64,000 nucleotides of DNA, from NCBI RefSeq assembly GCF_012034175.1, contig NZ_JAATEJ010000003.1:310001-374000 (forward strand), written 5' to 3'. The notes beneath the pieces are model-generated. The model saw only the letters and a program-made list of their open reading frames with translations. It searched no databases and had not been told where the DNA came from. Positions 34,201-57,481 of the stretch are shown here, piece by piece; positions within the stretch are counted from its first letter, which is position 1, and each line of letters opens with the position of its first letter. This DNA comes from Actinacidiphila epipremni. GTDB lineage: Bacteria > Actinomycetota > Actinomycetes > Streptomycetales > Streptomycetaceae. Both the position numbers and the translations under genes were made by a program.

Positions 34201-35730
34201 TCAGCTGGTGGCGAGGGTCCGCAGCACACCGCTGACGTTGAGGATCTCGTGGCACCCCGCGGCCTGCTTGCCGGTCGCCGGGGTGCCCGGCTTCTGGCAG
34301 GTGACCTCGATCGTCACCGCGGCGTTCTGGGGTACGTCGATCGGGGTCACCCAGTGGTAGTCCTGGTTGCGGAAGGTCTCCAGGGCGATCGTGGTGATCT
34401 TGCGGTCGCCGAAGGTGATCGTCATCAGCCCCTCGTCGCCCTGGAAGTTGGCGACGACGATGTCGGTGACGCCGAAGTCGCTGCCCGCCGGGACCAGATA
34501 CGTACCGGTCTTCGTCTGGCCGCCGGACGCCTGGACGTCGATGGTCTGCGAGCTCTGCACCCCGCCGCCGAGGGCGCCGGGTACTGAGCCGCCGGTACCG
34601 CCGCCCGTGCCGGACCCGGCGCCGCCGGTCCCGGCCTGGGTGCCGGAGCCCTGCGTGCCCGGGGACGCGCCGCCCGTCGTGCCCGGCGTCTGCCGGCCCT
34701 GCTCGCCGGGGGAGGGCTGCGGGTGGACGACCTTGTTCGCCGCCGCCTTGGCGGTGCTGCGTACCGCGGGGCGCACCAGGGCGAACCACGCCAGCAGCAG
34801 GGCGAGCAGCGCGGCGAGCACCGCGAGCAGCCACCGCGGGAAGATCGGGATCTGCACGAACTCGCCGTCCAGCGGCGGCCGGAAGGCGCTCTCCTCCAGC
34901 CGGGTGCGCTCCAGCTCGGCGGCCCGGCGCTGGGCCGGCACCGGGGCCGCACCCGCCGTCGCCGCCGCCCCGCCGGCCGACCCGGAACCGGCCCCGGACC
35001 CCGAACTGGAGCCGGCCCCGCCGCCCGTCCCCCCGCCGTCCGTCACCGGCGCCCCCAGCCACGCGGCCGGCCCGGTCAGCGGCGCGTACCCGGCGGTGTC
35101 CACGGTGAAGGGCCGGGTCACGGCCTTGCCGAACCACAGCGGCCGGCCCGTCCGCACCAGCAGCCGCACGTCCGCCGACTCGCCCGGCTCCAGCGTCCGG
35201 CGCGCCGGGCTGAAGGCGAACTTCAGCTCGTCGCCGGCCTGGCCGGGAGTGCAGCCGGTCTCCACGGGCGCGTTGCCCTGGTTGCGCACCGCCAGCCGGT
35301 AGCGCCCGCGCAGCCAGCCGTGCCGGCGCCGCGGCACCAGCTCGGTGCGCAGCTCGTGGAACTGCTCGACGTGCACGGTGGTCTCGGGCACCCGTACGGC
35401 CTCGGGGTGCTCGGCGGGCAGCACCCGTACCGCCAGGGGCACCGCGCCTGCCCGCACCTCGGGGGAGCGGGGCGGCGCCAGCCGGATCTCGACCGTCTCC
35501 GAGGTGCCGGGGTAGAGGGAGACCCGCGCGGGCTCCACGGTCGTCCAGGGCGCGCAGTCGCCGGCGACCTCCAGGCTGTACGCCTCGACGATGTCGCTGT
35601 CGTTGCGGACGGTCAGGGTGGTCGTGGCGGTGCTGCCGGGGACGACCGTCACCTCCGGGATGCCGAGGCCGGACGCGCCGGTGCCGGGGGTGCCGGAGGA
35701 GGCACCGGGAGAGGCTGCAGAAGGCGTCAC
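34201..35730 (-). CDS. COG1470-like membrane protein of the CIS locus
   Basis: A 509-residue protein with an Ig-like/CARDB-type N-domain (about 20-230: PEVTVVPGSTATTTLTVRNDSDIVEAYSLEVAG). A Gly/Ser-rich linker and a TM helix (WLLAVLAALLALLLAWFALV, about 298-317) follow. A Thr/Gly-rich outer linker leads to a C-terminal beta domain (about 405-505) with two cysteines (VTCQKPG, GCHEIL) that may pair. The large N-domain would be cytoplasmic. GTG 35730 lies 6 bases after a TAGCCT -10 box, so leaderless. Similar proteins accompany Streptomyces CIS genes; a membrane docking or envelope role is inferred. It is the only CIS-region gene on the minus strand. Confidence 0.7.
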   Translation of the reverse strand: MTPSAASPGASSGTPGTGASGLGIPEVTVVPGSTATTTLTVRNDSDIVEAYSLEVAGDCAPWTTVEPARVSLYPGTSETVEIRLAPPRSPEVRAGAVPLAVRVLPAEHPEAVRVPETTVHVEQFHELRTELVPRRRHGWLRGRYRLAVRNQGNAPVETGCTPGQAGDELKFAFSPARRTLEPGESADVRLLVRTGRPLWFGKAVTRPFTVDTAGYAPLTGPAAWLGAPVTDGGGTGGGAGSSSGSGAGSGSAGGAAATAGAAPVPAQRRAAELERTRLEESAFRPPLDGEFVQIPIFPRWLLAVLAALLALLLAWFALVRPAVRSTAKAAANKVVHPQPSPGEQGRQTPGTTGGASPGTQGSGTQAGTGGAGSGTGGGTGGSVPGALGGGVQSSQTIDVQASGGQTKTGTYLVPAGSDFGVTDIVVANFQGDEGLMTITFGDRKITTIALETFRNQDYHWVTPIDVPQNAAVTIEVTCQKPGTPATGKQAAGCHEILNVSGVLRTLATS

Positions 35731-36032
35731 GCCGGAAGGCTAGGCCGGTGGCCGGGTGTGTCACGAGACGCACGGAGGGCAACGGCCGGGCAGTCGTGAT
35801 GCCCGGGAAGTCTGGGTAGCCATGGTGTCGTTGTGAGCTGTTGGTGCCCTCGGGAGGTGGTGCGTCGAATCGTCCGGATGCGCGCGGCCCTCGTGGCGCA
35901 TGCCCCTTGCCGCCTGCCCCCGACCCCAGCCCCTACTCCCCCTGGACCCCAACTCCCCCGATTCCCGCAGGACTTCTACGAACTCGTGGAACGCACCACA
36001 CCGGCGTCATGTGCGAAGGAGAACCCTTGACC
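35731..36032. promoter_or_regulatory. Divergent region before the CIS regulator
   Basis: 302 bases between the COG1470-like gene and the LuxR-type gene. TAGCCT (35737-35742, minus strand) is the likely -10 box of the former. For the regulator I see AAGGAG (36016-36021) but no convincing promoter hexamers. No reading frame here looks coding. Confidence 0.35.
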
Positions 36033-36731
36033 ATGTCCGTAGCCGCGTCACACGAACCCGCACCGAATCGCGCGGCCTCCGCACACCGCGCCTTAACCGA
36101 CGCCCGCCCCGACCGTGTGACCGTCGCCGTCCACGCCGCCGACCTGGTGCTGCGCGTCGGCGTCGTGCAGCAACTGCGCCAGCGCCCCGAGATCGACCTG
36201 CTCGACGCCGCCGACGCCGAGCGGGCCCAGGTCTCCCTGGTGGTGGTCGACACCGTCGACGACGAGGTCGCCGCGCTGCTGGCGCGGCTGCGCCACAACA
36301 ACGCCACCCGCACCGGGCTGATCGCCGGGTCGCTGGGGCCCGGCGCGCTGCAACGCGTCATCGAATGCGGTGTGGCAGCCGTGCTGCGCCGCGCCGAGGC
36401 CGACCAGGACCGGCTGCTGCACCTGGTCCTGGCGATCGCCAACGGCGAGGGCGTGCTGCCGGGCGACATGCTCGGCAAGCTCCTCACGCATGTGGCGAGC
36501 CTGCACCGCTCCGCGCCCGAACCGCAGGGGCTGTCCCTGTCCACCCTGTCCACGCGCGAGGCGGACATGCTGCGCCTGGTGTCGGAGGGCCTCGACACCG
36601 CGGAGATCGCCCGGAAGACCGCCTACTCCGAACGGACCGTCAAGAACGTGCTGCACGAGGTGACCACCCGGCTGCAACTGCGCAACCGGGCGCACGCCGT
36701 GGGCTACGCGTTGCGCAACGGGCTCATCTGA
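36033..36731 (+). CDS. LuxR-type regulator of the CIS locus, with a TTA codon
   Basis: A 232-residue regulator with a degenerate receiver-like domain (about 27-130) and a C-terminal GerE helix-turn-helix (about 165-228, LSTREADMLRLVSEGLDTAEIARKTAYSERTVKNVLHEVTTRLQLRNRAHAVGYALR). The receiver lacks the paired acidic residues at its start (VHAADL), although VVVD keeps an Asp, so phosphorylation is doubtful. Codon 21 (36093-36095) is TTA, read only by the bldA leucyl-tRNA in Streptomyces; it is the only in-frame TTA I found in the window. ATG 36033 is used; TTG 36027, 5 bases after AAGGAG, is an alternative. The TTA and the position suggest it activates the CIS genes during development. Confidence 0.88.
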   Translation: MSVAASHEPAPNRAASAHRALTDARPDRVTVAVHAADLVLRVGVVQQLRQRPEIDLLDAADAERAQVSLVVVDTVDDEVAALLARLRHNNATRTGLIAGSLGPGALQRVIECGVAAVLRRAEADQDRLLHLVLAIANGEGVLPGDMLGKLLTHVASLHRSAPEPQGLSLSTLSTREADMLRLVSEGLDTAEIARKTAYSERTVKNVLHEVTTRLQLRNRAHAVGYALRNGLI

Positions 36732-36904: not shown

Positions 36905-39900
36905 GTGACCGGACCTGCTGACCCCGGCGGGAGGTACCGCCTGGGGAAACTCGGCTTGTCGTTGCTGCTGACGGTCCCGCTGCTGGGTGCGACGGCCGCG
37001 GCCGAGCACGACGCCGGCACCCCCTCCGGGCGCGCCCTCGCCCCGCGGGCGGCGGTCGCCGCGGTCGCCGCCGAGAACCGGATCGCGTACGCGGGCACGC
37101 AGCACCGCAGCCTCGGCGCGGTCGCCGGTGACGACACCAGCACCAGCACACCGCTGTTCGGCGCTGGGCCCGCGCACTTCGACACGCAGCCGGCCGCGCT
37201 CGGCGACCGGCTGGTCTTCGCCAGCCGCAGGGACGAGCCGAAACCGCAGGTCTACCTGCGCTCCCCGGACGGCTCGGTCCTGAAGCTCACCAGCGGCCGG
37301 GACGCCGCGCACCCCCGGCTGACCCCCGACGGCGGCACCGTCGTCTTTGACTCCGCCGAGCCCGGCGGCCCGGGCGGCGCGACCGAGCGCGACCTGTGGA
37401 GCGTACGGACCGACGGCACGGACCTGACCCGGCTCACCGACACCCCGGCCGTGAATGAGCAGAGCCCCACGGTCTCCCCGGACGGGCAGCGGCTGGCGTA
37501 CTCCGCCGACGCCGATTCGGCGACCGGGGCGCAGATCTACGTACGCCCGCTCGCCGGCGGCGCCGCCACCCGGGTCAGCGACCCGGCGAACGGCGCGGCC
37601 ACCGAGCCGGTGTGGAACCCGGTGGACGACCCCGCGCACCGCGACCTCATCGCCTACACCGCGACCGCCGCCACGCAGGGAGCCGCCGCCGACCCCGCGC
37701 CGCAACCCCACCTCAGGCTCACCGGTGACGGCACCGACCAGCCGCTGCTCGGCGGCGACCGGGCAGCGTGGCGGGCCCACGGGGCAGCGTGGTTGCCCGA
37801 CGGGGACGGGCTGCTCTTCCTCAGCCCCGAGGTCACCTGCGAATGCCAGGGCGACTACGACCACGTCTTCCGTACCACGGCCCTGTCCGCCGACGTCCCC
37901 TCGCTGGTGCTCAGCGAGGACCGCGAGGTCGGCTCGCCCACCTGGCTCGGCCCGCTGGACGGCGGCGGGGCGGTCGTGGAGCGGGACACCGCGCCCAACA
38001 AGTGCGACGCCACGCTCCAGGACATCCGCCCGGACGGCACCGACCCGCGCGACCTGGGCCTGACCGTGCTGGAGGAGGACCCGGCCGCGAGCACCGACAC
38101 CGACCCCACGCACGACCCGCTCTTCCACCCCGCGGCCGGCTACGACCCGTGGACCGAGCGGCAGAACTACACGCCGGACGGGCGGCGGATCGTCGTGACC
38201 CGCTTCGAGACGCTCGACGACCAGCGCGTCGAGCGGATCTGGACGGTCGACGCCGACGGCGCGAACCCGGCCGTGCTGCCGCTCGACGGCCGCGGCCCCA
38301 CCGACTGGGACACCGACCCGACGTTCTCGCCGGACGGGACGTCGCTGGCCTTCACCCGCACCTCCCCCGGCGGCATCGGCGACGGCCACCCCAGCCGTAT
38401 CCTCATCGCCGATGTCGCCACCGGGCGCATCACCGGCGAGATCACCCCGCCGGCCGACCAGGTGCAGGGCGCGGACGCGCAGCCCACATGGTCGCCGGAC
38501 GGCACGACGCTGGCCTTCACCCGGGGCGCGGCCGTCGAGGGCGGCGCCAAGCACATCTGGACCGTGCCGCTGGCCGACCTCACCGCCCAGCACGACCTGA
38601 CCGCGGGCAACTGCCCGGCCGGCTGCGCGGTCATCGACGACAGCCCGGCCTTCTCGCCGGACGGCCGCGGCATCGTCTTCAACCGCAAGAACGGCGGCGG
38701 CGCGGTCGACGAACGCAACGGCCTGGTCCAGATCTCCACCGCCGGCGACGGCTGCACGGTGCTGCTGCCCGCCGCCGCCCGCGGCCTGCCCGGCGCGTGC
38801 GGGCGGCAGCTGCCCGACACCACCGCGACCGGCCCCTTCCAGCCGCGCGACGCCGCGTGGACCGCCGACGGGACGGGCGTGGTCTTCAGCTCGCGCGCCG
38901 CGGTCGCCGCCAACAGCCCGGAGAAGCTCAACCTGCTGGACGTGGCGTCCGGCGCGGTCACGCCGATCACCGCGGACCTGCCGGGGCGGCAGAAGGAGCC
39001 GTCCGTGCAGCAGTCGGTGGACCTCGCGGTGCAGGCGCCCGGCACCGTCCCGCAGGTCGTCGTGGGGGAGCCGGCGACGATCCCGGTCGATGTCGTCAAC
39101 CACGGCCCGGCCGCCTCCCCCGGCACCCGGCTGACCGTCGCGCCGCCCGCCGGCGTACGGGTCACCGGGCTCACCTGGCCCGGCGGCACGTGCGACCCGG
39201 CCGCGCTCCAGTGCGACCTCGGCGTGCTGCCGCCGGGCGACACGGTCACGGTGAGCGTCACGGTCATCGGCGATGTGCCGGGCGACGCGCCGCTCGGCTG
39301 GTCGGTGACCGGCACGGTGGAGGACCCGCAGCCCGAGGACAACGCCGGGCAGACCGTCGTACCGGTCGTCGAGGCCACCCCGCCGCCCACCTCACCCCCG
39401 CCCACCTCGCCGCCGCCCAGCAGCCCGCCGCCCACGACGGCACCGCCCACCTCGCCTCCCCCGACGTCGAAGCCCCCCACGCCCCCGCCGCCCCCGGCCG
39501 CCGGGCCCGGCGTGCGGATCACCGCGCAGCCGAACCCCGGTTACGTCGGCGGCCGGGTCGTCGTGACGTACACCGTGCGCAACGGGCGCAACGCCCTCGC
39601 GACCGGGCTGCGGCTGCGGATCGGCCTGCCCGCGGGCATCCCGCACGCCGCCCCGCCACCGGGCTGCTCCGCCTCCTGGGAGTGCGCGCTGCCCGACCTC
39701 GACCCGGGCGGCAGCACCGTCGTCCGGGTCGTGCTGAGCCCCGACAAGGCGCTGACCGCGAATGTGACCGGGGTGCTCACCACGACCGGCACGGACGCGG
39801 ACCCCCGCGACAACACCGCACGGCAGCGGCTGCGCATCCTCCAGCCGCGGATCGTCGCCGTCCCGAACATCGGCCGGCCCGGCTTTGTCACCTCGGTGCG

Positions 39901-40144
39901 CGGCAAGGACTTCCCGCCGGGCGTACCGGTACGTTTCACGTGGAACATCGGCATCACCGCCGCCGCGGCGCCGACCGTGCCGAAGCGGGACGGCACGTTC
40001 ATCGGCCAGCTGCTCATCCTGGCCAAGGACCAGACCGGGCCGCGGGTCATCACCGCCGCCGGGCCCGGATTCTCCCCGGTGACCACGGACTTCCTGGTGG
40101 TCAGCGGCAGCGTGCAGCCCCCGGACGAGGTGACCCGCCGATGA
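36905..40144 (+). CDS. Secreted TolB-like propeller protein with DUF11 domains
   Basis: A 1079-residue exported protein. The signal peptide (LGLSLLLTVPLLGATAAAEH) occupies about residues 15-40. WD40-like/TolB beta-propeller units (about 55-690) follow, with repeated SPDGTSLAFT, SPDGQRLAYS and SPDGRGIVFN motifs. Then come a DUF11/CARDB Ig-like domain (about 705-820), a ~40-residue Thr/Pro-rich hinge (PPPTSPPPTS) and a second Ig-like domain plus a beta-sandwich ending (about 865-1079). Many Cys pairs in the propeller fit oxidation outside the cell. The GTG at 36905 has GAGGGAA upstream. The stop overlaps the next start (ATGA). Its presence in a CIS operon suggests an envelope or receptor role; this is inference. 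Confidence 0.8.
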   Translation: MTGPADPGGRYRLGKLGLSLLLTVPLLGATAAAEHDAGTPSGRALAPRAAVAAVAAENRIAYAGTQHRSLGAVAGDDTSTSTPLFGAGPAHFDTQPAALGDRLVFASRRDEPKPQVYLRSPDGSVLKLTSGRDAAHPRLTPDGGTVVFDSAEPGGPGGATERDLWSVRTDGTDLTRLTDTPAVNEQSPTVSPDGQRLAYSADADSATGAQIYVRPLAGGAATRVSDPANGAATEPVWNPVDDPAHRDLIAYTATAATQGAAADPAPQPHLRLTGDGTDQPLLGGDRAAWRAHGAAWLPDGDGLLFLSPEVTCECQGDYDHVFRTTALSADVPSLVLSEDREVGSPTWLGPLDGGGAVVERDTAPNKCDATLQDIRPDGTDPRDLGLTVLEEDPAASTDTDPTHDPLFHPAAGYDPWTERQNYTPDGRRIVVTRFETLDDQRVERIWTVDADGANPAVLPLDGRGPTDWDTDPTFSPDGTSLAFTRTSPGGIGDGHPSRILIADVATGRITGEITPPADQVQGADAQPTWSPDGTTLAFTRGAAVEGGAKHIWTVPLADLTAQHDLTAGNCPAGCAVIDDSPAFSPDGRGIVFNRKNGGGAVDERNGLVQISTAGDGCTVLLPAAARGLPGACGRQLPDTTATGPFQPRDAAWTADGTGVVFSSRAAVAANSPEKLNLLDVASGAVTPITADLPGRQKEPSVQQSVDLAVQAPGTVPQVVVGEPATIPVDVVNHGPAASPGTRLTVAPPAGVRVTGLTWPGGTCDPAALQCDLGVLPPGDTVTVSVTVIGDVPGDAPLGWSVTGTVEDPQPEDNAGQTVVPVVEATPPPTSPPPTSPPPSSPPPTTAPPTSPPPTSKPPTPPPPPAAGPGVRITAQPNPGYVGGRVVVTYTVRNGRNALATGLRLRIGLPAGIPHAAPPPGCSASWECALPDLDPGGSTVVRVVLSPDKALTANVTGVLTTTGTDADPRDNTARQRLRILQPRIVAVPNIGRPGFVTSVRGKDFPPGVPVRFTWNIGITAAAAPTVPKRDGTFIGQLLILAKDQTGPRVITAAGPGFSPVTTDFLVVSGSVQPPDEVTRR

Positions 40145-40845
40145 TCCAGGACGTCGACGAAGGGCTGCGCCGGCTGCTCGGCGAGTCCGGCTTCGAGGCA
40201 TCGGGCGTGGACGTGGTCTTCGACGCGCCGACGAAGGAGTGGGCGGCGCGGCGGAGCGTGCCCACGGTGTGCGTCTTCCTCTACGACATCCGCGAGGACG
40301 TCAGCCGGCGCGGCAACGGCGGCGGCGAGGTCTACGACGAGGACGGGCATGTGGTGGGGCGGCGCACCCCGCCGCGCTGGTTCGACCTCACCTACCTCGT
40401 CACGGCGTGGGCGAGCCGCCCGCAGGACGAGCACCGGCTGCTCACCCAGGTGCTCACCTGCCTGACCGCCACGGACACGCTGCCCGCCCGGCTGCTCGGC
40501 GGCTCGCTCGCCGAACTCGGCCTCCAGGTCGGCATGGACACCGCCGGCACCGCGATGGACGCGCCGGCCGCCGCGGACGTCTGGTCCGCACTCGGCGGCG
40601 AGCTCAAGGCATCGGTGGGCGTCCGGGTGCGGGCGCCGCTCGCCGGCATCACGCAGGCCGTCGCGCCGCCCGTCACGGAGGGCCTGCTGGTGCGCTCGGC
40701 CGACCGCCGCGACACCGCCGGCCCCGAGCAGGGCCGCCGGCTGCGCTACACCGAGGTCTCCGACCCCGGCCCCGAGGGCTTCGCCGGCCCCCGCGACCGC
40801 GGCCCCGCCCCCGCCCGCCGCCGGCGCGGGGAGCGGCAGCCGTGA
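40141..40845 (+). CDS. DUF4255 protein (CIS cap/tail terminator)
   Basis: A 234-residue protein matching Pvc16/Afp16-type DUF4255: MIQDVDEGLRRLL at the start, then VDVVFDAPTKEWAARRSVPTVCVFLYDIREDVSRR and RWFDLTYLVTAWASRPQDEHRLLTQVLTCL. In related particles it forms the hexameric ring that ends the sheath-tube and fixes length. The C-terminal ~50 residues (Gly/Pro/Arg-rich) are an added disordered tail. ATG 40141 overlaps the upstream stop (ATGA), and the stop overlaps the ATPase GTG. Confidence 0.88.
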   Translation: MIQDVDEGLRRLLGESGFEASGVDVVFDAPTKEWAARRSVPTVCVFLYDIREDVSRRGNGGGEVYDEDGHVVGRRTPPRWFDLTYLVTAWASRPQDEHRLLTQVLTCLTATDTLPARLLGGSLAELGLQVGMDTAGTAMDAPAAADVWSALGGELKASVGVRVRAPLAGITQAVAPPVTEGLLVRSADRRDTAGPEQGRRLRYTEVSDPGPEGFAGPRDRGPAPARRRRGERQP

Positions 40846-43034
40846 GCACTGCCGCGCAGGCTTCCGCGGGCGGCGGGGCGGCGGTGGGGCCGTACGCGGG
40901 GGAGGCGGCTGCGGGCGATGCCGGGGCGGTCGCCGGTGACGCCGCCGGGGGGACGTCCCCGGGGGACGCCGACGCCGGGCCGCTCGGGCTGTGGGGCCGG
41001 CTCGGGGCGCTGGAGCGGCGGGTGCGGTGGGCCGTCGAGGGGCGGCGGGCCGGGGACCCCGACCCGGACGACCCGTACCGGGGGCAGTATCTGACGCCCG
41101 AGGCGGCCCTGGGCATCCTCGACGCCGGGCACGGGTCCGGGCTCGGTTCCGGGCTCGGCGCGGCGGAGCGCTGGGAGCCGGCCGCCGGGTCCGGGCTCGG
41201 GGAGCTGGCCGGGCGGTTCGGGCTGGACCCGCTGGACCTGGACCTGCTGCTCGTCGCCCTCGCGCCCGACCTGGACGCCCGCTTCGAGGCGCTCTACGGC
41301 TACCTCAACGACGACCTCACCCGCCGCCGCCCCACCGTCGGCCTCGCCCTGGAGCTGTGCGGACTCGGCGCCGCGCCCGCCGCCCGCTTCCGGCTCGCCG
41401 CGGGCGCGCCGCTGGTGGACGGCGGGCTGCTGGAGGTCACCGAGCCGGACCGGCCGCCGCTGTCCCGGGTGCTGGTGGTGCCCGACCGGGTGACGGCGCA
41501 TCTGCTGGGCGGCACGCGCCCGGACCCGCGCCTCGCGGCGGTGCTCGCCGAGCCGGCGGAGGACCCCACGGCCGAGCCGGCACAGCTGCGCCGGGCGGCG
41601 GGCGCGGCCCGCGGCGGTACGGGGCCGGTCCACCTGCGCAGCCGGGGCGGCGACGCGGAGGGCCTGGCCGTCGCCGCGCTGCGGCACGCGGGCCTGCGCC
41701 CACTGGTCCTGGACGCCGCCGCGCTGGCCCGGCGCCCCGCGGACGTGCCGGACCTGGCCCGTACCGCCGCGCGCGAGGCCCGGCTCACCGGCGCCGGGGT
41801 CGTCCTCGGGCCGCTGGAGGCGCTGCCCGCGGCGCCCGCGGAACGCGCCAGGGCGCTCGGCGAGTTGTGCGCCGCCCTGCGCGGCATCCCGCTGCTCACC
41901 CATTGCGCCGCCGACTGGGACCCGGCGTGGGCGGCCGACAGCCCCGTCGTGCTGGCCGTCCCGCCGCCCGCCCCGGAACGCCGGACCGCCCGCTGGGCCC
42001 ACGCCCTCACCCGCGCCGCCGCAGCCGCCGGCGCCCCCGCGCCCGCCGCCGACCTCGCCGGCGCCGTCGCCGCGCACCGGCTCGACGCCCGGCAGGTACG
42101 GCGGGCCGCGGACGTCGCCGTACGGACCGCGGGGCTCGACGGGCGGGCGGTCGGCGCGGACGACCTGCGGGCGGCGGTACGGGCGCAGAACGGCGCCGCG
42201 CTGGACCGGCTGGCGCGGCGGATCGAGCCCGGCGTCGGGTGGGACGACCTGGTCCTCCCGCCGGCCACCCACCGGCGGCTGCGGGAGCTGGCGCTGCGCG
42301 CCCGGCACCGCGACCAGGTGCTCGGCCAGTGGGGGATGCGGCCCGGCGGCGGGCGCGGACGCGGCGTCATCGCGCTCTTCTCCGGCGAGTCCGGCACCGG
42401 CAAGACCATGTCCGCCGAGGTCGTCGCCGCGGACCTCGGCATGGACCTCTACGTCGTGGACCTGTCGACCGTCGTCGACAAATACGTGGGGGAGACCGAG
42501 AAGAACCTGGAGCGCATCTTCACCGAGGCCGCCGCCGTCAACGCGGTGCTGCTCTTCGACGAGGCCGACGCCATCTTCGGCAAGCGCTCCGAGGTCAAGG
42601 ACGCGCACGACCGGCACGCCAACATCGAGTCGGCGTACCTGCTCCAGCGCATGGAGTCCTTCGACGGCATCGCCGTCCTGACCACCAACCTGCGGGCCAA
42701 CCTGGACGAGGCGTTCACCCGCCGGCTGGACGTCGTCGCCGACTTCCCCGTGCCCGACGCCGGCCACCGCCGCGCCCTGTGGGAGCGGTGCCTGGGCCCG
42801 CGGCTGCCCCGCGCCGCCGACCTGGACCTGGACTTCTGCGCCGACCGCTTCGAGCTGGCCGGCGGCTCCATCCGCGCGTGCGCGGTGACCGCGGCCTACC
42901 TCGCGGCGGCGGCGGACGCGCCGCTGACGATGCGCCAGGTGGTGACGGCGATCGGCCAGGAGTACCGCAAGCTCGGCCGGCTCGTCCTGGACGGCGAGTT
43001 CGGCCCGTGGCTCCCGGACCCGGCCGACCTGTGA
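40842..43034 (+). CDS. AAA+ ATPase of the contractile injection system
   Basis: A 730-residue AAA+ protein of the Afp15/Pvc15 type. Residues 1-55 are Gly/Ala-rich. A helical N-terminal domain includes FGLDPLDLDLLLVALAPDLDARFEALYGYLNDD. A degenerate first ATPase-like domain (about 250-440) lacks a P-loop. The active module has Walker A GESGTGKT (about 515-522), Walker B VLLFDEAD near 569-576, sensor 1 VLTTN near 611, and the arginine-finger region FTRRLD. In eCIS this ATPase is required for assembly or remodelling of particles, by an unsettled mechanism. GTG 40842 overlaps the DUF4255 stop. Confidence 0.92.
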   Translation: MSTAAQASAGGGAAVGPYAGEAAAGDAGAVAGDAAGGTSPGDADAGPLGLWGRLGALERRVRWAVEGRRAGDPDPDDPYRGQYLTPEAALGILDAGHGSGLGSGLGAAERWEPAAGSGLGELAGRFGLDPLDLDLLLVALAPDLDARFEALYGYLNDDLTRRRPTVGLALELCGLGAAPAARFRLAAGAPLVDGGLLEVTEPDRPPLSRVLVVPDRVTAHLLGGTRPDPRLAAVLAEPAEDPTAEPAQLRRAAGAARGGTGPVHLRSRGGDAEGLAVAALRHAGLRPLVLDAAALARRPADVPDLARTAAREARLTGAGVVLGPLEALPAAPAERARALGELCAALRGIPLLTHCAADWDPAWAADSPVVLAVPPPAPERRTARWAHALTRAAAAAGAPAPAADLAGAVAAHRLDARQVRRAADVAVRTAGLDGRAVGADDLRAAVRAQNGAALDRLARRIEPGVGWDDLVLPPATHRRLRELALRARHRDQVLGQWGMRPGGGRGRGVIALFSGESGTGKTMSAEVVAADLGMDLYVVDLSTVVDKYVGETEKNLERIFTEAAAVNAVLLFDEADAIFGKRSEVKDAHDRHANIESAYLLQRMESFDGIAVLTTNLRANLDEAFTRRLDVVADFPVPDAGHRRALWERCLGPRLPRAADLDLDFCADRFELAGGSIRACAVTAAYLAAAADAPLTMRQVVTAIGQEYRKLGRLVLDGEFGPWLPDPADL

Positions 43035-43206: not shown

Positions 43207-44796
43207 ATGCACGCGCGAGACCACGCATCCGACCCGGCGCAGGCCACGGACCGGGCCGCGCGCAGAGCGACCGCCGCACCCGCCCGACCCGCCGCCCGGC
43301 CCGCCGGGGTAGCGCCGCCCGCGCGCGACCTGCGGGCCCTCCAGCGCAGCGCCGGCAACGCCGCCGTCAGCCGGATGGTCTCCCGGCGGCCCGCGGGCCC
43401 CGGCGTGCAGCGCGCGGCCGTCCAGGACGTGCTGCGCTCCCCCGGCGTCCCGCTGGGCGCCGGGCTGCGCACCGAGATGGAGTCCCGGCTCGGCGCCGAC
43501 TTCGGCGACGTCCGGGTGCACACCGACAGCGCCGCGCAGCGCTCCGCCGCGGACCTGGGCGCCCGCGCGTACACCAGCGGCCACCACATCGTCGCCGGCG
43601 CCGGCGGCCTGGACCGGCACACCCTCGCCCATGAGCTGACCCATGTGGTGCAGCAGCGCTCGGGCCCGGTGGCCGGCACCGACCGCGGCGACGGGCTGCG
43701 GGTCAGCGACCCCGGCGACCGCTTCGAGCGCGCCGCCGAGGCCAACGCCCGCCGCGTCCTCGCGGGCCCGGCGCCCGTACAGCGCGACGAGCACGCGGCC
43801 GGAGGAGAAGGGCGGCAGTACGCCGAGGACGCGCCCGTGCAGCGGTCCGTCGAGTGGTACCTCCAGCAGGGCGACACTCTCAACGCGTTCGGCACCGCGC
43901 TGGGCAACCTGGTCGAGTCGGCCGCGGCCGACATCCTGGCCCGGCCCGAGCTGGTGAACGTGCCCAACAACGGCTACGTCACGCGCTGGCACAAGGTCTT
44001 CGCCGCCTTCATCGACAGCGAGCGGACCCAGACGGCCTTCCTCTACACCGCGTTCGGCTACGCGGTCGAGGCGCTGACGACCGCCCGGCTCGACGAGGTC
44101 AGGAGCCACCTGCCGGCCGGCTGGACGATCAGCACCCAGGTCACCCACGGCCACACCCGCCCCGACCTGGTGGTCTTCGACGACCACCACCAGGAGCAGG
44201 CGTGGTTCGACATCACCGCGCGCGACAGCAGGGGCCACATCCGGGACAAGATGGGCGCCGGCTGGGGCACCCGGCCGTATGTCGCCGAGGTCGTCTACCC
44301 CTCGCTGCGGCCGGCCGACCTCATGCCCAGCAACGTCACCGCCGAGCAGCGCGCGGAGTTCGCCGCAGCCGCCGCGGAGGAGCTGCGCAAGGAGGCGGAG
44401 ATCGTCGACCAGCTCCAGGAATGGGCGCTGATCGTGCACGGCGCGATGGTCGACGACGACGAGGTCGGCGCCGACCGGGCCAAGCAGCGCAGGTACTTCG
44501 AGGAGGAGATGTACCTGCAGATCGGGGCGGCGGCGACCGCCGCGATGCGGGCCGGCGGCAGCAAGCTCTCGCCGGCCACCGCGAAGTCGATCCTGACCTA
44601 CCTGCACGGCAAGGGGCGGCGGACCGAGCAGGGCGGCCCCTGGATGAGCGCGTTCGGCTACACGCGCGACCAGGCGACCGGGCGCGACCCGGTGACCTTC
44701 GGGCGGATCGTCAACGAGCTCGCGGTGCGGGACGCGGCGGGCGACGCGGGCGGCGCGGCGGGTGCGAGCGCGATGGACGTCGACGAGGCCGCGTAG
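43207..44796 (+). CDS. eCIS-core (DUF4157) protein with C-terminal candidate effector domain
   Basis: A 529-residue protein. The N-terminus is Ala/Pro/Arg-rich and contains LQRSAGN (45-51). The DUF4157/eCIS-core domain (about 74-152) includes GADFGDVRVHTD, SGHHIVAG and the metalloprotease-like HELTH (142-146). VQR occurs at 67, 191 and 211. From residue 214 a separate domain begins (EWYLQQGDTLNAFGTALGNLVESAA). It has helices, then HTRPDLVVFDDHHQEQAWFDITARDSRGHI (about 316-345) and YVAEVVYPSL, which resembles a PD-(D/E)XK-like core without the canonical Lys. A helical tail ends with SAMDVDEAA. DUF4157 domains mark proteins loaded into eCIS, so this is the best cargo candidate. The ATG is fixed by GGAGGAGGAG at 43195-43204. 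Confidence 0.85.
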   Translation: MHARDHASDPAQATDRAARRATAAPARPAARPAGVAPPARDLRALQRSAGNAAVSRMVSRRPAGPGVQRAAVQDVLRSPGVPLGAGLRTEMESRLGADFGDVRVHTDSAAQRSAADLGARAYTSGHHIVAGAGGLDRHTLAHELTHVVQQRSGPVAGTDRGDGLRVSDPGDRFERAAEANARRVLAGPAPVQRDEHAAGGEGRQYAEDAPVQRSVEWYLQQGDTLNAFGTALGNLVESAAADILARPELVNVPNNGYVTRWHKVFAAFIDSERTQTAFLYTAFGYAVEALTTARLDEVRSHLPAGWTISTQVTHGHTRPDLVVFDDHHQEQAWFDITARDSRGHIRDKMGAGWGTRPYVAEVVYPSLRPADLMPSNVTAEQRAEFAAAAAEELRKEAEIVDQLQEWALIVHGAMVDDDEVGADRAKQRRYFEEEMYLQIGAAATAAMRAGGSKLSPATAKSILTYLHGKGRRTEQGGPWMSAFGYTRDQATGRDPVTFGRIVNELAVRDAAGDAGGAAGASAMDVDEAA

Positions 44797-44928
44797 CCCC
44801 TGCCGGGGTGCGGGGGTCCGGGCGCGGGCCGACGCGCGACCCGCGCGATCCGCCGGGGTCCGGGCGCGCTGCCGGCGCGGGTCCCGGCGCGGTCTTGGCG
44901 CGGTCTTGGCGGGTCCGCAAAAGGCAGT

Positions 44929-44950
44929 GGCCCTGCCCCCTGCCAGGGCC
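44929..44950 (+). terminator. Hairpin upstream of the sheath gene
   Basis: GGCCCTG (44929-44935) pairs with CAGGGCC (44944-44950). It lies 132 bases after the eCIS-core stop and may lower read-through into the sheath gene. The 268-base gap 44797-45064 also holds two GGCGCGGTCTT direct repeats and no gene; I see no clear promoter hexamers. Confidence 0.45.
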
Positions 44951-45064: not shown

Positions 45065-46618
45065 ATGGCGACGTACCTCACCCCGGGTGTGTACGTGGAG
45101 GAGGTGCAGTCCGGGGCCCGGCCGATCGAGGGCGTCGGGACCGCGGTCGCCGCGTTCGTCGGGTTCGCCGAGCGGGGCCCCTTCCACGCGCCGACGCTGG
45201 TGACCAGCTGGGACCAGTACGCGCAGCTCTTCGGCGGCTTCACCGAGGGCACCTATCTGGCCCACGCGGTCTACGGCTACTTCCTCAACGGCGGCGGCGC
45301 CGCCTACGTCGTGCGCATCGGCGGTGACGCCTCCGCCGCCGGCGCGGCCCGGAGCGGCGCAGGCAAGGACGCCGGGGCGGCGCAGCCGGTGGAGCTCGGC
45401 GGCTTCCTCGTCACCGCCCGGCCCGGTGTGACGGGCGTGTCCGTGGAGGTCGCCGACGCCGAGGGCGACAGCCCCGCCGAGGACCGCTTCCGGGTGCTGG
45501 TCCGGCAGGGCGACCAGGTCGTGGAGACCTACGACGCCTCGACCCGCAAGAACGTCCGCGCCTACCTGGTCACGCAGGCCCGCGGCTCGCAGCTCGTCGA
45601 GGTCGCCGAGAAGCGCGGCGCCGCCCCGAGCCGGCCCGCGAACGGCACGACGGCGGTGCCGGACGGCCCGGCCGCGGGCTCCGGCGCCGGTTCCGGCGCG
45701 GTGGCGCGGCTCTCCCCGGCCGAATACGTCGGCGACATCGCCGAGCGCACCGGCTTCGGCGGCCTGGAGACGATCGACGAGATCACCATGGTCGCGGTGC
45801 CGGACCTGATGAGCGCCTACGAGCGCGGCGCGATCGACGCCGAGGGCGTACGGACCGTGCAGCTCGCGGTGATCGCGCACTGCGAGCAGATGGGCGACCG
45901 GGTCGCCGTCCTCGACACCCCGCCGGGCCTGTCGGCGCAGGCGGTCCGCACCTGGCGCAACGACGAGGCCGGCTACGACTCCCGGCACGCCGCCCTCTAC
46001 TACCCGTGGGTGCGGGTCTTCGACCCGGCCGTCGGCCACAACACCACGATCCCGCCGAGCGGCCATGTCGCCGGGGTGTGGGCGCGCAACGACGCCGAGC
46101 GCGGGGTGCACAAGGCGCCGGCCAACGAGGTGATCCGCGGCGCGGTCGACCTGGAGATCCGGCTCAGCAAGGGCGAGCAGGACCTGCTCAACCCGATCGG
46201 CGTCAACTGCGTACGGGCCTTCCCCGGCCGCGGCATCCGGGTGTGGGGCGCGCGGACGCTGTCCTCGGACCCGGCCTGGCGCTACCTGAACGTGCGCCGG
46301 CTGTTCAACTACCTGGAGGAGTCCATCCTGCTGGGCACCCAGTGGGTGGTCTTCGAGCCCAACGACGACCGGCTGTGGTCCAGCATCCGCCGCAACGTCA
46401 CGGCCTTCCTCACCGAGGAGTGGCGCCGGGGCGCGCTGTTCGGCCGTACCGCGGACGAGGCCTTCTACGTCAAGTGCGACCGCGACAACAACCCGCCGGA
46501 GTCGATCGACCAGGGCCGGGTCGTGTGCGAGATCGGGGTGTGCCCGGTCAAGCCGGCGGAGTTCGTGGTCTTCCGGCTGGCCCAGTTCTCCGACAGCACC
46601 AGCCTCATCGACGAGTGA
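45065..46618 (+). CDS. Contractile sheath protein
   Basis: A 517-residue phage tail sheath subunit that polymerises around the tube and contracts. MATYLTPGVYVEEVQSGARPIEGVGTAVAAFVGFAERGPFHAPTLVTSW is the diagnostic sheath N-terminus. The C-terminal handshake region includes NPIGVNCVRAFPGRGIRVWGARTLSSDPAWRYLNVRRLFNYLEESI and CDRDNNPPESIDQGRVVCEIGVCPVKPAEFVVFRLAQF. A Gly/Ala/Ser-rich surface insertion lies at about 185-215. The ATG at 45065 is preceded by GAAGGAG. One sheath gene serves the machine, compared with two or three in Afp/PVC. Confidence 0.96.
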   Translation: MATYLTPGVYVEEVQSGARPIEGVGTAVAAFVGFAERGPFHAPTLVTSWDQYAQLFGGFTEGTYLAHAVYGYFLNGGGAAYVVRIGGDASAAGAARSGAGKDAGAAQPVELGGFLVTARPGVTGVSVEVADAEGDSPAEDRFRVLVRQGDQVVETYDASTRKNVRAYLVTQARGSQLVEVAEKRGAAPSRPANGTTAVPDGPAAGSGAGSGAVARLSPAEYVGDIAERTGFGGLETIDEITMVAVPDLMSAYERGAIDAEGVRTVQLAVIAHCEQMGDRVAVLDTPPGLSAQAVRTWRNDEAGYDSRHAALYYPWVRVFDPAVGHNTTIPPSGHVAGVWARNDAERGVHKAPANEVIRGAVDLEIRLSKGEQDLLNPIGVNCVRAFPGRGIRVWGARTLSSDPAWRYLNVRRLFNYLEESILLGTQWVVFEPNDDRLWSSIRRNVTAFLTEEWRRGALFGRTADEAFYVKCDRDNNPPESIDQGRVVCEIGVCPVKPAEFVVFRLAQFSDSTSLIDE

Positions 46619-46680: not shown

Positions 46681-47121
46681 ATGGCAGAGGGCGACGCGCT
46701 TTCCACGCACATCTTCGGCGTGCAGCTCGGCGGTTACCTGGTCGAGTCGATCCAGGAGATCAGCGGGCTGACCGTCGAGGAGGAGGTCGTCGAGGTCCGG
46801 CAGGTCAGCTCGGACGGCAAGCAGATCATCCGCAAGCAGCCCGGCGCGCGGCTGGCCGGCGAGATCACGATCCGGCGCGGGCTCGACAAGAGCAGCGAGT
46901 TCACCAACTGGATCAAGGAGACCCTCAACAAGGGGGCCGTGAACACCGCGCGGCAGAACCTGACCATCGAGATCAAGGACTCCGAGGGCAGCACCGTGCG
47001 GCGCATCCAGCTCATGCAGGGCTGGGCGTCGAAGTGGGAGGGCCCCTCGCTCAACGCGGGCGAGTCGTCGGCGGCGACGGAGTCCGTCACCATCGTGTTC
47101 GAGGAGATCGTCATCGAATGA
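46681..47121 (+). CDS. Inner tube protein (first copy)
   Basis: A 146-residue gp19/Hcp-like tube subunit: FGVQLGGYLVESIQEISGLTVEEEVVEVRQVSSDGKQIIRKQPG, then the beta-hairpin ITIRRGLDKSSEFTNWIKETL, and the ending SATESVTIVFEEIVIE. It forms the hexameric rings of the injected tube. The stop overlaps the next start (ATGA). A second, divergent tube gene lies at 51346. Confidence 0.93.
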   Translation: MAEGDALSTHIFGVQLGGYLVESIQEISGLTVEEEVVEVRQVSSDGKQIIRKQPGARLAGEITIRRGLDKSSEFTNWIKETLNKGAVNTARQNLTIEIKDSEGSTVRRIQLMQGWASKWEGPSLNAGESSAATESVTIVFEEIVIE

Positions 47122-51345: not shown

Positions 51346-51771
51346 ATGACGGACAGCATCTTCGCGACCAGCGTGTTCTTCCGGCTCGCCATCGGCGGCA
51401 ACGACCTCGGCGCCTTCCACACCTGCTCCGGCATGGGCGCCCAGGTGGAGATGGAGAGCTACGCCGAGGGCGGCAACAACGGCTTCACCTGGCAGCTGCC
51501 CGGCCGCGTGACCTGGTCGAACATCACCCTCACCCGCCCCGTCACCGCCGACACCGCGAAGATCGCCCGCTGGCTGGACGAGACGCTGCGCCGCGTCGAG
51601 CCGAAGGACGGCGAGATCGTCGCCCTGCGCCCCGACCTCACCCAGATCATCAGCTGGCAGGTCTTCGGGATCGTGCCCGTGCGCTGGGAGGGCCCCTCGT
51701 TCGACCCGTCGAGTTCGACCGCCGCCGTCGAGACGCTGGAGATCGCCCACGAGGGGCTGCGCCCCGGCTGA
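51346..51771 (+). CDS. Inner tube/tube-initiator protein (second copy)
   Basis: A 141-residue gp19-like protein (IFATSVFFRLAIGGNDLGAFHTCSGMGAQVEMESYAEGGNNGFTWQLPGRVTWSNITLTRPVTADTAKIARWL). It is clearly related to the first tube protein by fold motifs but divergent, like Afp5/Pvc5, which starts the tube at the baseplate. The ATG has GAAAGGA upstream. Confidence 0.9.
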   Translation: MTDSIFATSVFFRLAIGGNDLGAFHTCSGMGAQVEMESYAEGGNNGFTWQLPGRVTWSNITLTRPVTADTAKIARWLDETLRRVEPKDGEIVALRPDLTQIISWQVFGIVPVRWEGPSFDPSSSTAAVETLEIAHEGLRPG

Positions 51772-51884
51772 TCCCCGGACGCCCACCCGGGCGTGGCGGC
51801 GCCCGCCCCCACCGGCCCGCCACCAGGACCGACGACCGAAAAACGTAAGAAAAGACCCGCCACCCCGAGAGAGGAAGCCCCGCG
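51772..51884 (+). promoter_or_regulatory. Intergenic hairpin and A-rich patch inside the CIS operon
   Basis: GTGGCGG (51793-51799) can pair with CCGCCAC (51817-51823). It is followed by an A-rich run (51838-51855, GAAAAACGTAAGAAAAGA), striking in GC-rich DNA, and by GAGAGGAAG before the next ATG. It could be a partial terminator with re-initiation, an internal promoter or an RNA processing site. Confidence 0.35.
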
Positions 51885-52604
51885 ATGTCACCAGCGGTCC
51901 GGCCAGGACGGGCGCTGGCCCAGCTCGTGCTCATGGAGCCGCCGGCCACCGTCGGCGCCAAGCCCGGGGGGCGGATCGCGCAGCTGGACCTGCAGTTCAA
52001 CCCGGCGTCGCTGCGGCTGCAGAAGACGACGGAGTGGCGGCGCTCGCCCTCGCGGATGGCGGAGGAGTCGGCGCTGCCGGAGTTCGTCGGGTCCGGGCCG
52101 CGCACGCTCAGCCTGGAGGTCTTCCTGGACGCGACCGCGACGCACGACAACTCCGTGGAGCGCGCGGTCGACAAGCTCATGAAGGCGTGCGTGCCGACGC
52201 CGGCGAGCCTGGGCCGCAAAAAGCCGGCGAGCCCGTGGGTGCGCTTCGAGTGGGGGACGGCCCGCACGACGTCCTTCTACGGCGTCGTCACGAGCCTGTC
52301 GGCGACCTACTCGCTCTTCGACGTGGACGGCAAGCCGCTACGGGCGACCTGCGCGCTGTCGATCGAGGAGGCGAGCGTCGACGCGCAGGGCCAGAACCCG
52401 ACGTCCGGCGCCCGGACCGCGCGCAGCACGCACACCGTCGTCGCGGGCGACAGCCTGCCGCTGCTGGCGTGGCGGGAGTACGGGGACGCGGCGGCCTGGC
52501 GGGAGATCGCCGAGGCCAACGACATCGACGACCCGCTCGCGCTGGTGCCCGGCACGGAGCTGGTGGTGCCGGCGCTGCGCGGCGCGGGCGCGGAGGAGGA
52601 GTGA
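51885..52604 (+). CDS. LysM-domain baseplate hub protein (Afp7/gp53-like)
   Basis: A 239-residue protein. An N-terminal hub domain (about 10-165: LDLQFNPASLRLQKTTEWRRSPSRMAEESALPEFVGSGPRTLSLEVFLDATATHDNSVERAVDKLMKAC) is followed by a LysM domain (about 180-232: HTVVAGDSLPLLAWREYGDAAAWREIAEANDIDDPLALVPGTELVVPAL). In eCIS this protein joins tube and spike. The start ATG has GAGAGGAAG upstream. Its TGA overlaps the next ATG (TGATG). Confidence 0.9.
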   Translation: MSPAVRPGRALAQLVLMEPPATVGAKPGGRIAQLDLQFNPASLRLQKTTEWRRSPSRMAEESALPEFVGSGPRTLSLEVFLDATATHDNSVERAVDKLMKACVPTPASLGRKKPASPWVRFEWGTARTTSFYGVVTSLSATYSLFDVDGKPLRATCALSIEEASVDAQGQNPTSGARTARSTHTVVAGDSLPLLAWREYGDAAAWREIAEANDIDDPLALVPGTELVVPALRGAGAEEE

Positions 52605-54424
52605 TGGGCGGGTCCGAGGGGCAGGGCGGGCGGTCGTTCGCGGCCGACCCGATCGTGGAGGCGCCCGGCGAGCTGCCGAAGACGTGGGCGGCGCAGCTGG
52701 TGGGCTGCGTGGTGGACGAGAACGTCGGGCTGCCGGACGCCGCCGTGCTGACCTTCCGCGACCCCGACCACGAGTTCCTGGCCGCGACCGGCATCACCAT
52801 CGGCACCCCCTTGCGGGTGTCGGTCGTCACGGTCACCGACCAGGCGCGTGAGCGGCTGTTCGCCGGCGAGGTCACCGCGCTGGAGCTGGACCGCGACCGC
52901 ACCGGCTCCTTCACGGTCGTGCGGGCCTACTCGCGGGCGCACCGCCTCCAGCGCGGCCGGCGGGTCGCGGCGTACCGGAACATGTCGGCGGCGGCGATCG
53001 TGCGCGAGGTCGCGGCGCGGGCCGGGCTGGCGTGCGGGACGGTGCAGGCCGCGCCCGTCACGTACAAGCAGCTGTCGCAGGCGAACATCTCGGACTGGGA
53101 CTTCCTGCAGTATCTGGCGCACGAGAGCGGCGCGTTGGTGCGGGTCGACGACAAGGGGCTGCTCCAGTTCACCCGCGCGGACAAGGCGTCGGGCGCGCCC
53201 GCGCCCTCCACGTCGGCCGCCCGGGACCCGATGGTGCTCGAATACGGCCGCAATCTGCTGGCGTTGCGGGCCTCGCTGTCGGCGGCGGACGGTGCGGCGC
53301 AGGTGGAGGTGCGCGGTTGGGACGTGGCGACGAAGAGGCCGCTGGTCGCGCGGGAGCCGTCGGTGGTGAGCGACACCGTGCTGCCGGGGCTGAGCCCGGC
53401 GCTGGCGGCGAAGTTCGGCACCGCGAAGCTCACCGTCGCCGACACCCCGTACCGCACGATGGCCGAGACGACGGCGGCGGCGCAGGCGACCGCCGAGCAA
53501 GTAAGCGCCGGCTTCGCGGAGTTGGAGGCGGTCGCGGAGGGCAATCCGCGGCTGCGGGCGGGCGCGCCGGTGGCGCTCGGCAATGTCGGGCCGGCCTTCT
53601 CCGGCCGCTACACGGCGACCGCGGTGCAGCACGACCTGGAGCCCGACCGCGGCTACCGCACCACGCTGTGGGTCAGCGCGAGCCCGGACCGCTCGCTGAC
53701 GGGCCTGGTGACCGGCGCCAACGCGCCGAGCCGCGGCCCGCGCATCCCGGGCCTGGCGATCGGCGTCGTCACGGACGTACGGGAGCCGGACGGCGGGCAG
53801 AACGGCGCGGTGCGGCTCAAATTCCCCTGGCTGGACGACACTTACGTCTCCGACTGGGTCCGCACCGTGCAGTGGGGCGGCAAGGGCGGCGGCGGGGTCG
53901 TCAGCCCCGAGGTCAACGACGAGGTGCTGGTCGGCTTCGAGCAGGGCCTGCTGGACCACCCGTACGTCCTCGGCGGCCTCTACAACGGCGACGACCGCCC
54001 GTCCCCGCATGACGTGCCGCTCGTGGACCGCACCAGCGGCAAGGTCAACCGCCGCTCGGTGGTGTCGCGTTCGGGCCACCGGGTGGAGCTGCTGGACGCG
54101 CCGGCGCCCGGGCCCTCCGGGCTGCGGCTGGTGACCGGCGACGAGCGGCTCGCGGTACGGCTCGACGAGCGGCGCGGCCGGATCGAGGTGACGGTGTCGG
54201 CGGGCCGCGGCAGCCCGCTGACCTCGCTGGTGATGGACCGCGACGGCATCACGCTGGACGCCGGCGCGGGCACGGTGAGCCTGCGCGGCCGGCAGGTGGA
54301 CGTCACGGGAACGGCGGGCGCGCGCGTCACGGCCCCGTCGGTGAACGTCAAGGGCACGGCGGACGTCACGGTGGACGGCGGGGCGCTGGGCGTGCTGAAG
54401 GCGGCGCTGGTGCGGATCAACTGA
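52604..54424 (+). CDS. VgrG-like spike protein (Afp8-like)
   Basis: A 606-residue baseplate spike. The gp27-like part (about 1-370) includes VDENVGLPDAAVLTFRDPDHEFLA and the phage-late-control region ANISDWDFLQYLAHESGALVRVDDKGLLQFTRAD. A gp5-like OB fold (about 385-480, AIGVVTDVREPDGGQNGAVRLKFPWLDDTYVSDWVRTVQWGG) follows, then NDEVLVGFEQGLLDHPYVLGGLYNGDD and a beta-helix tail with valine-rich repeats up to VTVDGGALGVLKAALVRIN. The ATG (52604) overlaps the hub stop. It carries no extra effector domain. Confidence 0.93.
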   Translation: MGGSEGQGGRSFAADPIVEAPGELPKTWAAQLVGCVVDENVGLPDAAVLTFRDPDHEFLAATGITIGTPLRVSVVTVTDQARERLFAGEVTALELDRDRTGSFTVVRAYSRAHRLQRGRRVAAYRNMSAAAIVREVAARAGLACGTVQAAPVTYKQLSQANISDWDFLQYLAHESGALVRVDDKGLLQFTRADKASGAPAPSTSAARDPMVLEYGRNLLALRASLSAADGAAQVEVRGWDVATKRPLVAREPSVVSDTVLPGLSPALAAKFGTAKLTVADTPYRTMAETTAAAQATAEQVSAGFAELEAVAEGNPRLRAGAPVALGNVGPAFSGRYTATAVQHDLEPDRGYRTTLWVSASPDRSLTGLVTGANAPSRGPRIPGLAIGVVTDVREPDGGQNGAVRLKFPWLDDTYVSDWVRTVQWGGKGGGGVVSPEVNDEVLVGFEQGLLDHPYVLGGLYNGDDRPSPHDVPLVDRTSGKVNRRSVVSRSGHRVELLDAPAPGPSGLRLVTGDERLAVRLDERRGRIEVTVSAGRGSPLTSLVMDRDGITLDAGAGTVSLRGRQVDVTGTAGARVTAPSVNVKGTADVTVDGGALGVLKAALVRIN

Positions 54425-54456
54425 GGCGGAGGCGGGGTGGGTTCGTCCTGCCATGC

Positions 54457-54597
54457 GGTCAACGGGGCCGCGTGCAGGGGCGCTTGAGGTCAACCGGGGC
54501 CTTGCCCGAAGGCCCTTGAGGTCAACGGGGCCCGCGCAAGGGCCCTTGAGGTCAACAGGGCCCCGCGCAGGGGCCCTTGAGGTCAACCGAGGTCAAC
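54457..54597 (+). repeat. 31-bp tandem repeats, each able to form a hairpin
   Basis: GGTCAAC recurs at 54457, 54488, 54520, 54550, 54581 and 54591, giving four units of 30-32 bases plus a short remnant. The best unit is GGTCAAC, then a GGGCCCC-GCGCA-GGGGCCC stem-loop, then TTGA. They fill the gap between the spike and PAAR genes. Since 31 is not a multiple of 3 the frame shifts at each unit, so the repeats do not encode an extension of the PAAR protein. Confidence 0.9.
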
Positions 54598-54611
54598 TGA
54601 GGAGCGACGCA

Positions 54612-54929
54612 ATGCCGGCAGCAGCCCGTACCGGTGATCCCACCGACCACGGCGGGACGATCACCACCCCGCCGCCCGGCGCCGCCGTGGCGGTCGCGCG
54701 GGTGCTGATCGGCGGCAGGCCCGCCGCCGTCGTGGGCAGCCTCGCCGTCTGCCCGCTGCCGCCGCACGCCGCGCTCGGCCCGGCCAATGTGATCCTGCCC
54801 AACCCGGCCGCGGCGCTGGGCGGCGTGGTGCTGGTCGGCGGGCTGCCGGCCGCGCGGATGGGCGACCGCACCGCGTGCGGCGCGGTCGTGGTGCTCGGCG
54901 CGCCCAACGTGCTGATCGGAGGGGTGTGA
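54612..54929 (+). CDS. PAAR-domain spike tip protein
   Basis: A 105-residue PAAR protein that caps the spike with a sharp cone. Typical repeats are ARTGDPTDHGGTITTPPPGAAVAVARVLIGGRPAAVVGSLAVC, NVILPNPAAALGGVVLVGGLPAARMGDRTACGAVVVLGAPNVLIGG. His/Cys residues for the tip zinc are present (DHGG, CPLPPH, TACG). The ATG 54612 is chosen by GAGGAGCG immediately upstream. It is followed by a TGATG overlap with the gp25 gene. Confidence 0.92.
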   Translation: MPAAARTGDPTDHGGTITTPPPGAAVAVARVLIGGRPAAVVGSLAVCPLPPHAALGPANVILPNPAAALGGVVLVGGLPAARMGDRTACGAVVVLGAPNVLIGGV

Positions 54930-57393: not shown

Positions 57394-57481
57394 GCCCCGG
57401 GGGGTGCGGCGCCGCGGCTGCCGCGGGCGGGCGTGTGCGGTCCGGTCGGGGGTGCCCGGCGGGGCGTGTCGGAGGTGGGCG

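Follow-up and report, generated by a model that had tools for sequence, protein, structure and literature searches.

A TTA codon in the LuxR-type regulator beside a contractile injection system of Actinacidiphila epipremni, and a TTA excess among related regulators

Gene content of the locus

The window analyzed here, a stretch of 64,000 nucleotides from the A. epipremni genome, contains a gene cluster for a contractile injection system (CIS), whose features are collected in Table 1. One of these genes encodes a protein with a C-terminal GerE (LuxR) HTH domain (PF00196, Pfam E-value of 1.8e-11) and adjoins genes that Pfam identifies as sheath, tube, and baseplate components, all of which are parts of contractile injection systems. 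This domain and this neighborhood support the initial annotation, which had described the gene as a LuxR-type regulator of an injection system. In related loci, a homologue of the divergent Ig-like gene is adjacent to the regulator and divergent from it in 135 of 135 cases (the window included), and a homologue of the PD40/DUF11 gene is present in 130 of the 135; in 123 of those 130 loci its position is directly beside the regulator.

Table 1. Positions of the genes, codons, and candidate regulatory elements discussed in the text
Feature	Position in window	Strand	Basis or remark
CIS regulator, predicted NarL/FixJ-type fold, 232 aa, SCO4263/SlpR-like	36033..36731	+	Translation, Pfam, AlphaFold, Foldseek
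Divergent gene with Ig-like domain match	34201..35652	-	Pfam
PD40/DUF11 beta-propeller gene, adjoins regulator	36956..40144	+	Pfam
Pvc16_N protein	40141..40845	+	Pfam
AAA ATPase	40884..43034	+	Pfam
eCIS core domain (PF13699) protein	43375..44796	+	Pfam
Contractile sheath	45065..46618	+	Pfam; PF04984 in own genome
Tube protein, gp19-like	46681..47121	+	Pfam
Second gp19-like tube, CIS_tube with LysM, hub (GPD/base_V), PAAR, gp25, Baseplate_J, Tail_P2_I	51346..58057	+	Pfam
Palindrome GGGCA-N7-TGCCC, candidate operator	35788..35804	.	Between regulator and divergent gene
Conserved half-site AGGGCAAC	35776-35783		Ahead of palindrome 35788..35804
Palindrome copy AGGCA-N7-TGCCC, one mismatch	44922..44938	.	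143 nt ahead of sheath gene
Ribosome-binding site AAGGAG	36016..36021	+	11 nt ahead of ATG 36033; 5 nt ahead of in-frame TTG 36027
TTA codon 21 of regulator	36093..36095	+	N-terminal tail, pLDDT <50 at residues 1-9 and 11-25; shared with sister L001
GTG	36117..36119	+	Sole start codon found from TTA to conserved core
TTA	21672		Upstream of called start, same open frame; without a start codon ahead
TTAs	39541, 46734		Upstream of called start; each within another called gene, different frame
TTA	62928-62930		165 nt ahead of ATG 63093 (GGAG site); one GTG ahead of TTA

With respect to the regulator itself, an AlphaFold model built from 42 aligned sequences (mean pLDDT of 76.9, pTM of 0.53) consists of a receiver-like alpha/beta domain, a linker, and the HTH, with residues 1-25 forming a low-confidence tail. 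The best PDB matches found for this model with Foldseek were LiaR, VraR, ChrA, RcsB, NarL, and the like, and the predicted two-domain fold is one that the window regulator would have in common with NarL/FixJ response regulators (LiaR, VraR, RcsB). The residues Asp73, Arg119, and Arg120 are present in every one of the 135 aligned rows except the empty row of locus L076 (134 of 135 for each residue). On inspection by eye, the acidic pair after strand 1 and the conserved lysine of what we take to be the receiver motifs look replaced in the window protein. Because of these apparent replacements, the sequence suggests that the level of the regulator, rather than its phosphorylation, may set its activity.

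The TTA codon and its translation

In the frame that runs from ATG 36033 to the stop at 36731, the window letters and their translation place a TTA at positions 36093-36095, which is codon 21 of the regulator gene. The initial annotation had reported this codon as the only in-frame TTA in 64 kb, and both parts of that statement hold. The window contains 35 TTA trinucleotides on its two strands (17 + 18), all of which were checked by script, and among the 57 window genes called by third-position GC (GC3) none contains one of the other 34 in frame. Four of them share the open frame of a called gene upstream of its chosen start; among these only the TTA at 62928 could code, provided that a far-upstream GTG serves as start. 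The gene that begins downstream of this last TTA, in the same open frame, encodes a histidine-kinase-like ATPase (63093-63506). That the window has one TTA gene is in itself ordinary and at the level of chance, as 8 of 301 called genes in 400 kb sampled from the same genome bear a TTA, a rate at which approximately 1.5 such genes are expected per 57. What goes beyond chance is that this TTA sits in a gene whose relatives hold TTA far above background. The genome also carries a gene for tRNA-Leu(UAA) (G000:C15:105620-105703), which was located with a tRNA sequence as query and for which ARAGORN gave the anticodon taa.

In terms of translation, the start of the regulator is most plausibly ATG 36033 or TTG 36027, two codons farther up, and with either start the TTA lies inside the coding region. 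As compared to the downstream GTG 36117, ATG 36033 is favored because of the AAGGAG site and the codon-level conservation with the sister regulator from locus L001. That gene has the same ATG and the same TTA, and its N-terminal tail aligns with that of the window protein in a protein-like manner, with a difference in length of one codon; the N-terminal segment and its frame are common to both genes, which differ at 53 of 203 third positions in the core. More generally, our reading of the alignments is that the N-terminal tails of near relatives appear to share a common character. The alternative is that translation begins at GTG 36117, in which case the TTA would belong to a 5' leader and have no decoding role. 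This is the start that the GC3 caller prefers, and approximately residue 28 is where the conserved core begins and where several relatives from Pseudonocardiales apparently have their start. Nonetheless, we see no ribosome-binding site ahead of GTG 36117, whereas ATG 36033 has a good one, and the segment between the two starts resembles that of L001 as protein with a one-codon difference in length, which together make the downstream start distinctly unlikely. The initial annotation had named a start downstream of codon 21 as the outcome that would overturn its view, and the ribosome-binding site and the conservation with L001 instead favor ATG 36033.

TTA codons in related regulators

Relatives of the regulator were gathered in two sets. 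The first consisted of 80 loci and 76 regions from a sample of family genomes, 77 of 394 of which matched the window regulator at E<=1e-60 (own genome included). Removal of duplicates by core identity reduced 157 records to 136 distinct cores, of which 134 were usable: the partial L057 was dropped, and L076, whose core is empty, is counted in the 136- and 135-row sets and is absent from the trees and from the combined set. Matches in 64 of 392 genomes from a replicate search added 52 new loci and, with 14 already seen, 38 new sequences. The combined set comprises 172 regulators, all distinct as DNA and 167 distinct as protein. A TTA was taken as untranslated, and left uncounted, where a start preceded by a ribosome-binding site followed it (L005, L008, L050, L061, L238, L247) or where it lay still farther up an open frame; those that form codon 2 or 3 when an upstream start is used (L004, L011, L140) were counted tentatively.

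By these rules, a coding TTA is found in 69 of the 172 distinct regulators, 66 of which have exactly one and three of which (L060, L140, L231) have two; the replicate alone gave 20 of 38. Conservation of the TTA in relatives, which the initial annotation had proposed as a check, is partial, with 103 of 172 regulators lacking the codon. Across the regulators as a group, TTA is strongly overrepresented. It makes up 43 of 4158 Leu codons in regulator cores as compared to 9 of 28036 in neighbor genes (p = 5e-30), whereas CTA (12 versus 63) and CTT (40 versus 314) are not raised in the same comparison. Per codon, 43 in-frame TTAs in 27215 regulator codons stand against 9 in 317005 neighbor codons, a difference of ~55-fold, and out-of-frame TTAs occur at equal rates in regulators and neighbor genes (13 versus 138, p = 0.76). 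In the replicate, 19 TTAs were in frame versus 2 in the other two frames.

The codon is unevenly spread among taxa. Of the 77 genomes that matched in the family sample, 24 have a TTA. By genus code, it is present in 15 of 40 genomes in g9 (Streptomyces-like) versus 2 of 26 in g14 (Kitasatospora-like; p = 0.009), and none was found in the 11 informative rows from Pseudonocardiales, the twelfth row, L076, having given no core. The 103 regulators without TTA, 24 of the 26 Kitasatospora-like ones among them, imply that gating is dispensable for keeping a CIS.

TTAs were also seen in other genes of these loci. At L127 the regulator lacks a TTA and the adjacent PD40 gene has one. At L149 and L158 a gene that appears caspase-like by eye lies ~2.2-2.3 kb after a TTA-free regulator, and its likely frame has TTA as the eighth codon in 2 of the 4 loci holding this gene.

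Turning to position, the coding TTAs of the 172 regulators occupy 21 positions, 12 of them in the core; the N-terminal positions were counted back from residue 30, unaligned, and their nine numbers need not mean nine sites. From these sequences we regard the TTA excess and the multiplicity of positions as firm. Residue 48 is the commonest place (28 of 172 rows), and it also shows an excess of TTG, which is one step from TTA (24 of 131 Leu codons versus 89 of 3997 elsewhere). Outside residue 48, TTA still accounts for 23 of 4027 Leu codons versus 9 of 28036 in neighbor genes (p = 1.6e-14). A 5' positional bias in the first set is suggestive when ten core sites are tested with each position counted once (p = 0.017).

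The TTA at residue 48 and TTAs elsewhere tend to exclude one another, as judged by p values that ignore kinship among rows. In a 30-row clade around the window in the first set, another TTA is present in 0 of 14 regulators with TTA48 versus 10 of 16 without it (p = 3e-4), or 8 of 16 without it when the codon-2 cases are set aside (p = 0.003). For the replicate, tests on rows with >=75% identity to the window were fixed ahead of any look at TTAs, and these rows gave 0 of 6 versus 8 of 16 (two-sided p = 0.051); all 38 replicate rows gave 0 of 8 versus 12 of 30 (p = 0.039). Both sets pooled at >=78% core identity, a threshold chosen later, gave 0 of 20 versus 21 of 39 (p = 2e-5). Phylogenetic pairing on supported branches was not significant in the first-set and pooled analyses (median p = 0.125). 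Compensation between TTA positions thus appears likely, though not proven.

A candidate operator palindrome

The palindrome GGGCA-N7-TGCCC lies in the interval that separates the regulator from the divergent gene and is preceded by a conserved half-site. A palindrome is present in this interval with a spacer of 4-8 in 123 of 135 loci, and the spacer is 7 in 119 of them. Allowing at most one mismatch, the palindrome occurs in 126 of 134 upstream regions of the divergent gene versus 6.4 in shuffles, and in 65 of 68 upstream regions of the sheath gene (300 nt) versus 1.0, with the shuffles in question preserving two-base blocks only. The sheath-upstream copies lie mostly at -102 to -115; that of the window is at -143, as compared to ~-104 in most relatives. 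In a passage of PMC2000904, transcription of SCO4253 in Streptomyces coelicolor is reported to start 32 nt ahead of its start codon, and from such a start a site at ~-104 would be at a plausible position for an activator.

Upstream of other genes in the cluster, the same search (at most one mismatch) gave no excess for AAA (0 of 6) or Pvc16 (1 of 49, 2.0 in shuffles) and counts little above shuffles for PD40 (4 of 23, 1.2 in shuffles) and eCIS_core (5 of 31, 1.2 in shuffles). A form of the palindrome with a 6-base spacer gave nothing above chance. Two further copies in the window, at 37782 (inside the PD40 gene) and 35437 (in the divergent gene), were discounted as operators as they lie in coding sequence. 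In 17 loci, exact copies are also found at a distance of 6.7-7.3 kb beyond the regulator, perhaps ahead of another CIS operon. GGGCA-N7-TGCCC is most likely the site of the regulator and provides a concrete operator candidate, and its occurrence in both places lends indirect support to activation of the sheath operon by this protein. A limited search of literature excerpts turned up no mention of this palindrome.

Relation to known systems and proposed mechanism

Kinship and neighborhood make SCO4263/SlpR the very probable orthologue of the window regulator. In S. coelicolor and S. lividans this LuxR-type regulator of the CIS cluster has a TTA in its 5' region, as does the window gene. The initial annotation had pointed to a TTA-containing regulator beside tail-like genes in S. 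coelicolor, and SCO4263 is indeed published: as described in part of PMC2000904, it is a TTA-containing gene of the LuxR family that is required for transcription of SCO4253, and the cluster is bldA-dependent. In the corresponding part of PMC8505568, slpR is described as having a UUA codon in its 5' region, and particles are absent from slpR and bldA mutants. The TTA of the window gene is at codon 21 in the variable N-terminal tail, whereas relatives most commonly have it at residue 48. A table row in PMC4255298 lists a TTA in 8 of 11 SCO4263 orthologues, and an excerpt of PMC10020575 counts 42 of 56 eCIS regions with at least one TTA gene, 22 of these TTA genes being regulators. In the literature as excerpted, the rare UUA codon likewise occurs in adpA, actII-ORF4, redZ, and other bldA-target regulators, which are activators of a pathway or of global scope. 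The TTA of adpA lies between the segments for its two domains, in contrast to the 21 positions seen in CIS regulators. bldA gating of a CIS is already established for the model species, and the idea itself is not new.

Against this background, we think it quite probable that the regulator is a cluster-specific CIS activator that is UUA-gated via the bldA-type tRNA and that acts at the palindrome. According to this model, the product of 36033..36731 would activate the adjacent injection system, and the single UUA in its mRNA would be decoded by the bldA-type tRNA-Leu(UAA). The supply of this tRNA may limit activator synthesis in the window species, such that too little of it would mean little activator and CIS operons that remain off. 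The activator would bind GGGCA-N7-TGCCC both ahead of the sheath operon and between its own gene and the divergent neighbor, and once bound would switch on the sheath operon. Selection would then retain a UUA somewhere in the regulator gene, and not at one place. The codon, the signs of its translation, the tRNA gene, the TTA excess, and the conserved palindrome were computed here. Dependence of sheath expression on bldA and on the regulator is described for S. coelicolor and S. lividans in passages of PMC2000904 and PMC8505568, and the same gating would hold in the window species by analogy.

The initial annotation had gone further, proposing that gating of the regulator by bldA would cause the injection system to be made late. 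The gating itself is in keeping with the published model-species work and with the tRNA-Leu(UAA) gene of this genome. The late timing is not supported: as given in parts of PMC10020575 and PMC10066040, S. coelicolor CIS promoter reporters already show activity during vegetative growth, ahead of the developmental switch, and a passage of PMC8505568 reports constant expression during growth. With respect to control of the regulator gene, an excerpt of PMC6767563 places SCO4263 under one promoter that is wholly sigmaE-dependent. Upstream of 135 regulators, a strict sigmaE-type promoter pattern was found 0 times (2.9 in shuffles) and a looser one 5 times (9.4 in shuffles), and the pattern also fails to match the site that PMC6767563 prints for S. 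coelicolor.

Two other accounts of the TTA excess have to be weighed. It could stem from local AT-richness or from recent transfer from a low-GC donor, and part of PMC10327506 does describe TTA as frequent in Streptomyces transposase, nuclease, and helicase genes and suggests transfer there. In the same CIS regulators, however, CTA, CTT, and out-of-frame TTA are all at background, and we consider this origin very improbable indeed. A second account is that the TTA is translated with little effect, owing to misreading by other tRNAs or to other controls, and is mostly left over, as a relic, from an ancestral codon at residue 48. The TTG excess at that residue is what decay of an ancestral TTA would produce, most related regulators are without TTA, and the title of a report on S. 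clavuligerus refers to a TTA-type gene being mistranslated when bldA is mutated. Decay alone nonetheless cannot produce TTAs at many other residues far above background, and the loss of particles in S. lividans bldA mutants (PMC8505568, in the part cited above) also speaks against a codon of little effect; we judge the relic account unlikely.

UUA gating of the activator remains our preferred reading, and within it the presence of a TTA seems to be under selection while its position is not. A more specific proposal, in which we place about as much belief as doubt, is that the UUA "roams": it would be lost at one Leu and regained at another, so that bldA gating is kept and only its place varies between lineages, with a second CIS whose regulator is TTA-free escaping the gate. 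Such a history would extend a fact known from model species into an evolutionary pattern, that of a regulatory codon retained by presence rather than by place. If true, searches for conserved TTA sites would miss bldA targets that are under selection.

A second injection system in the same genome

A second CIS cluster is located on another contig of the same genome (C17:102000-132900; L216, L210) and contains homologues of nearly all window CIS genes. Its regulator is a paralogue of the window regulator (C17:132250-132879) with 48% identity and without a TTA. In the 52 kb read around this cluster there is no copy of GGGCA-N7-TGCCC. If the gating reading is right, the window CIS and the C17 CIS would differ in their dependence on bldA, and the genome thus offers an internal control in which one regulator has a TTA and the other does not.
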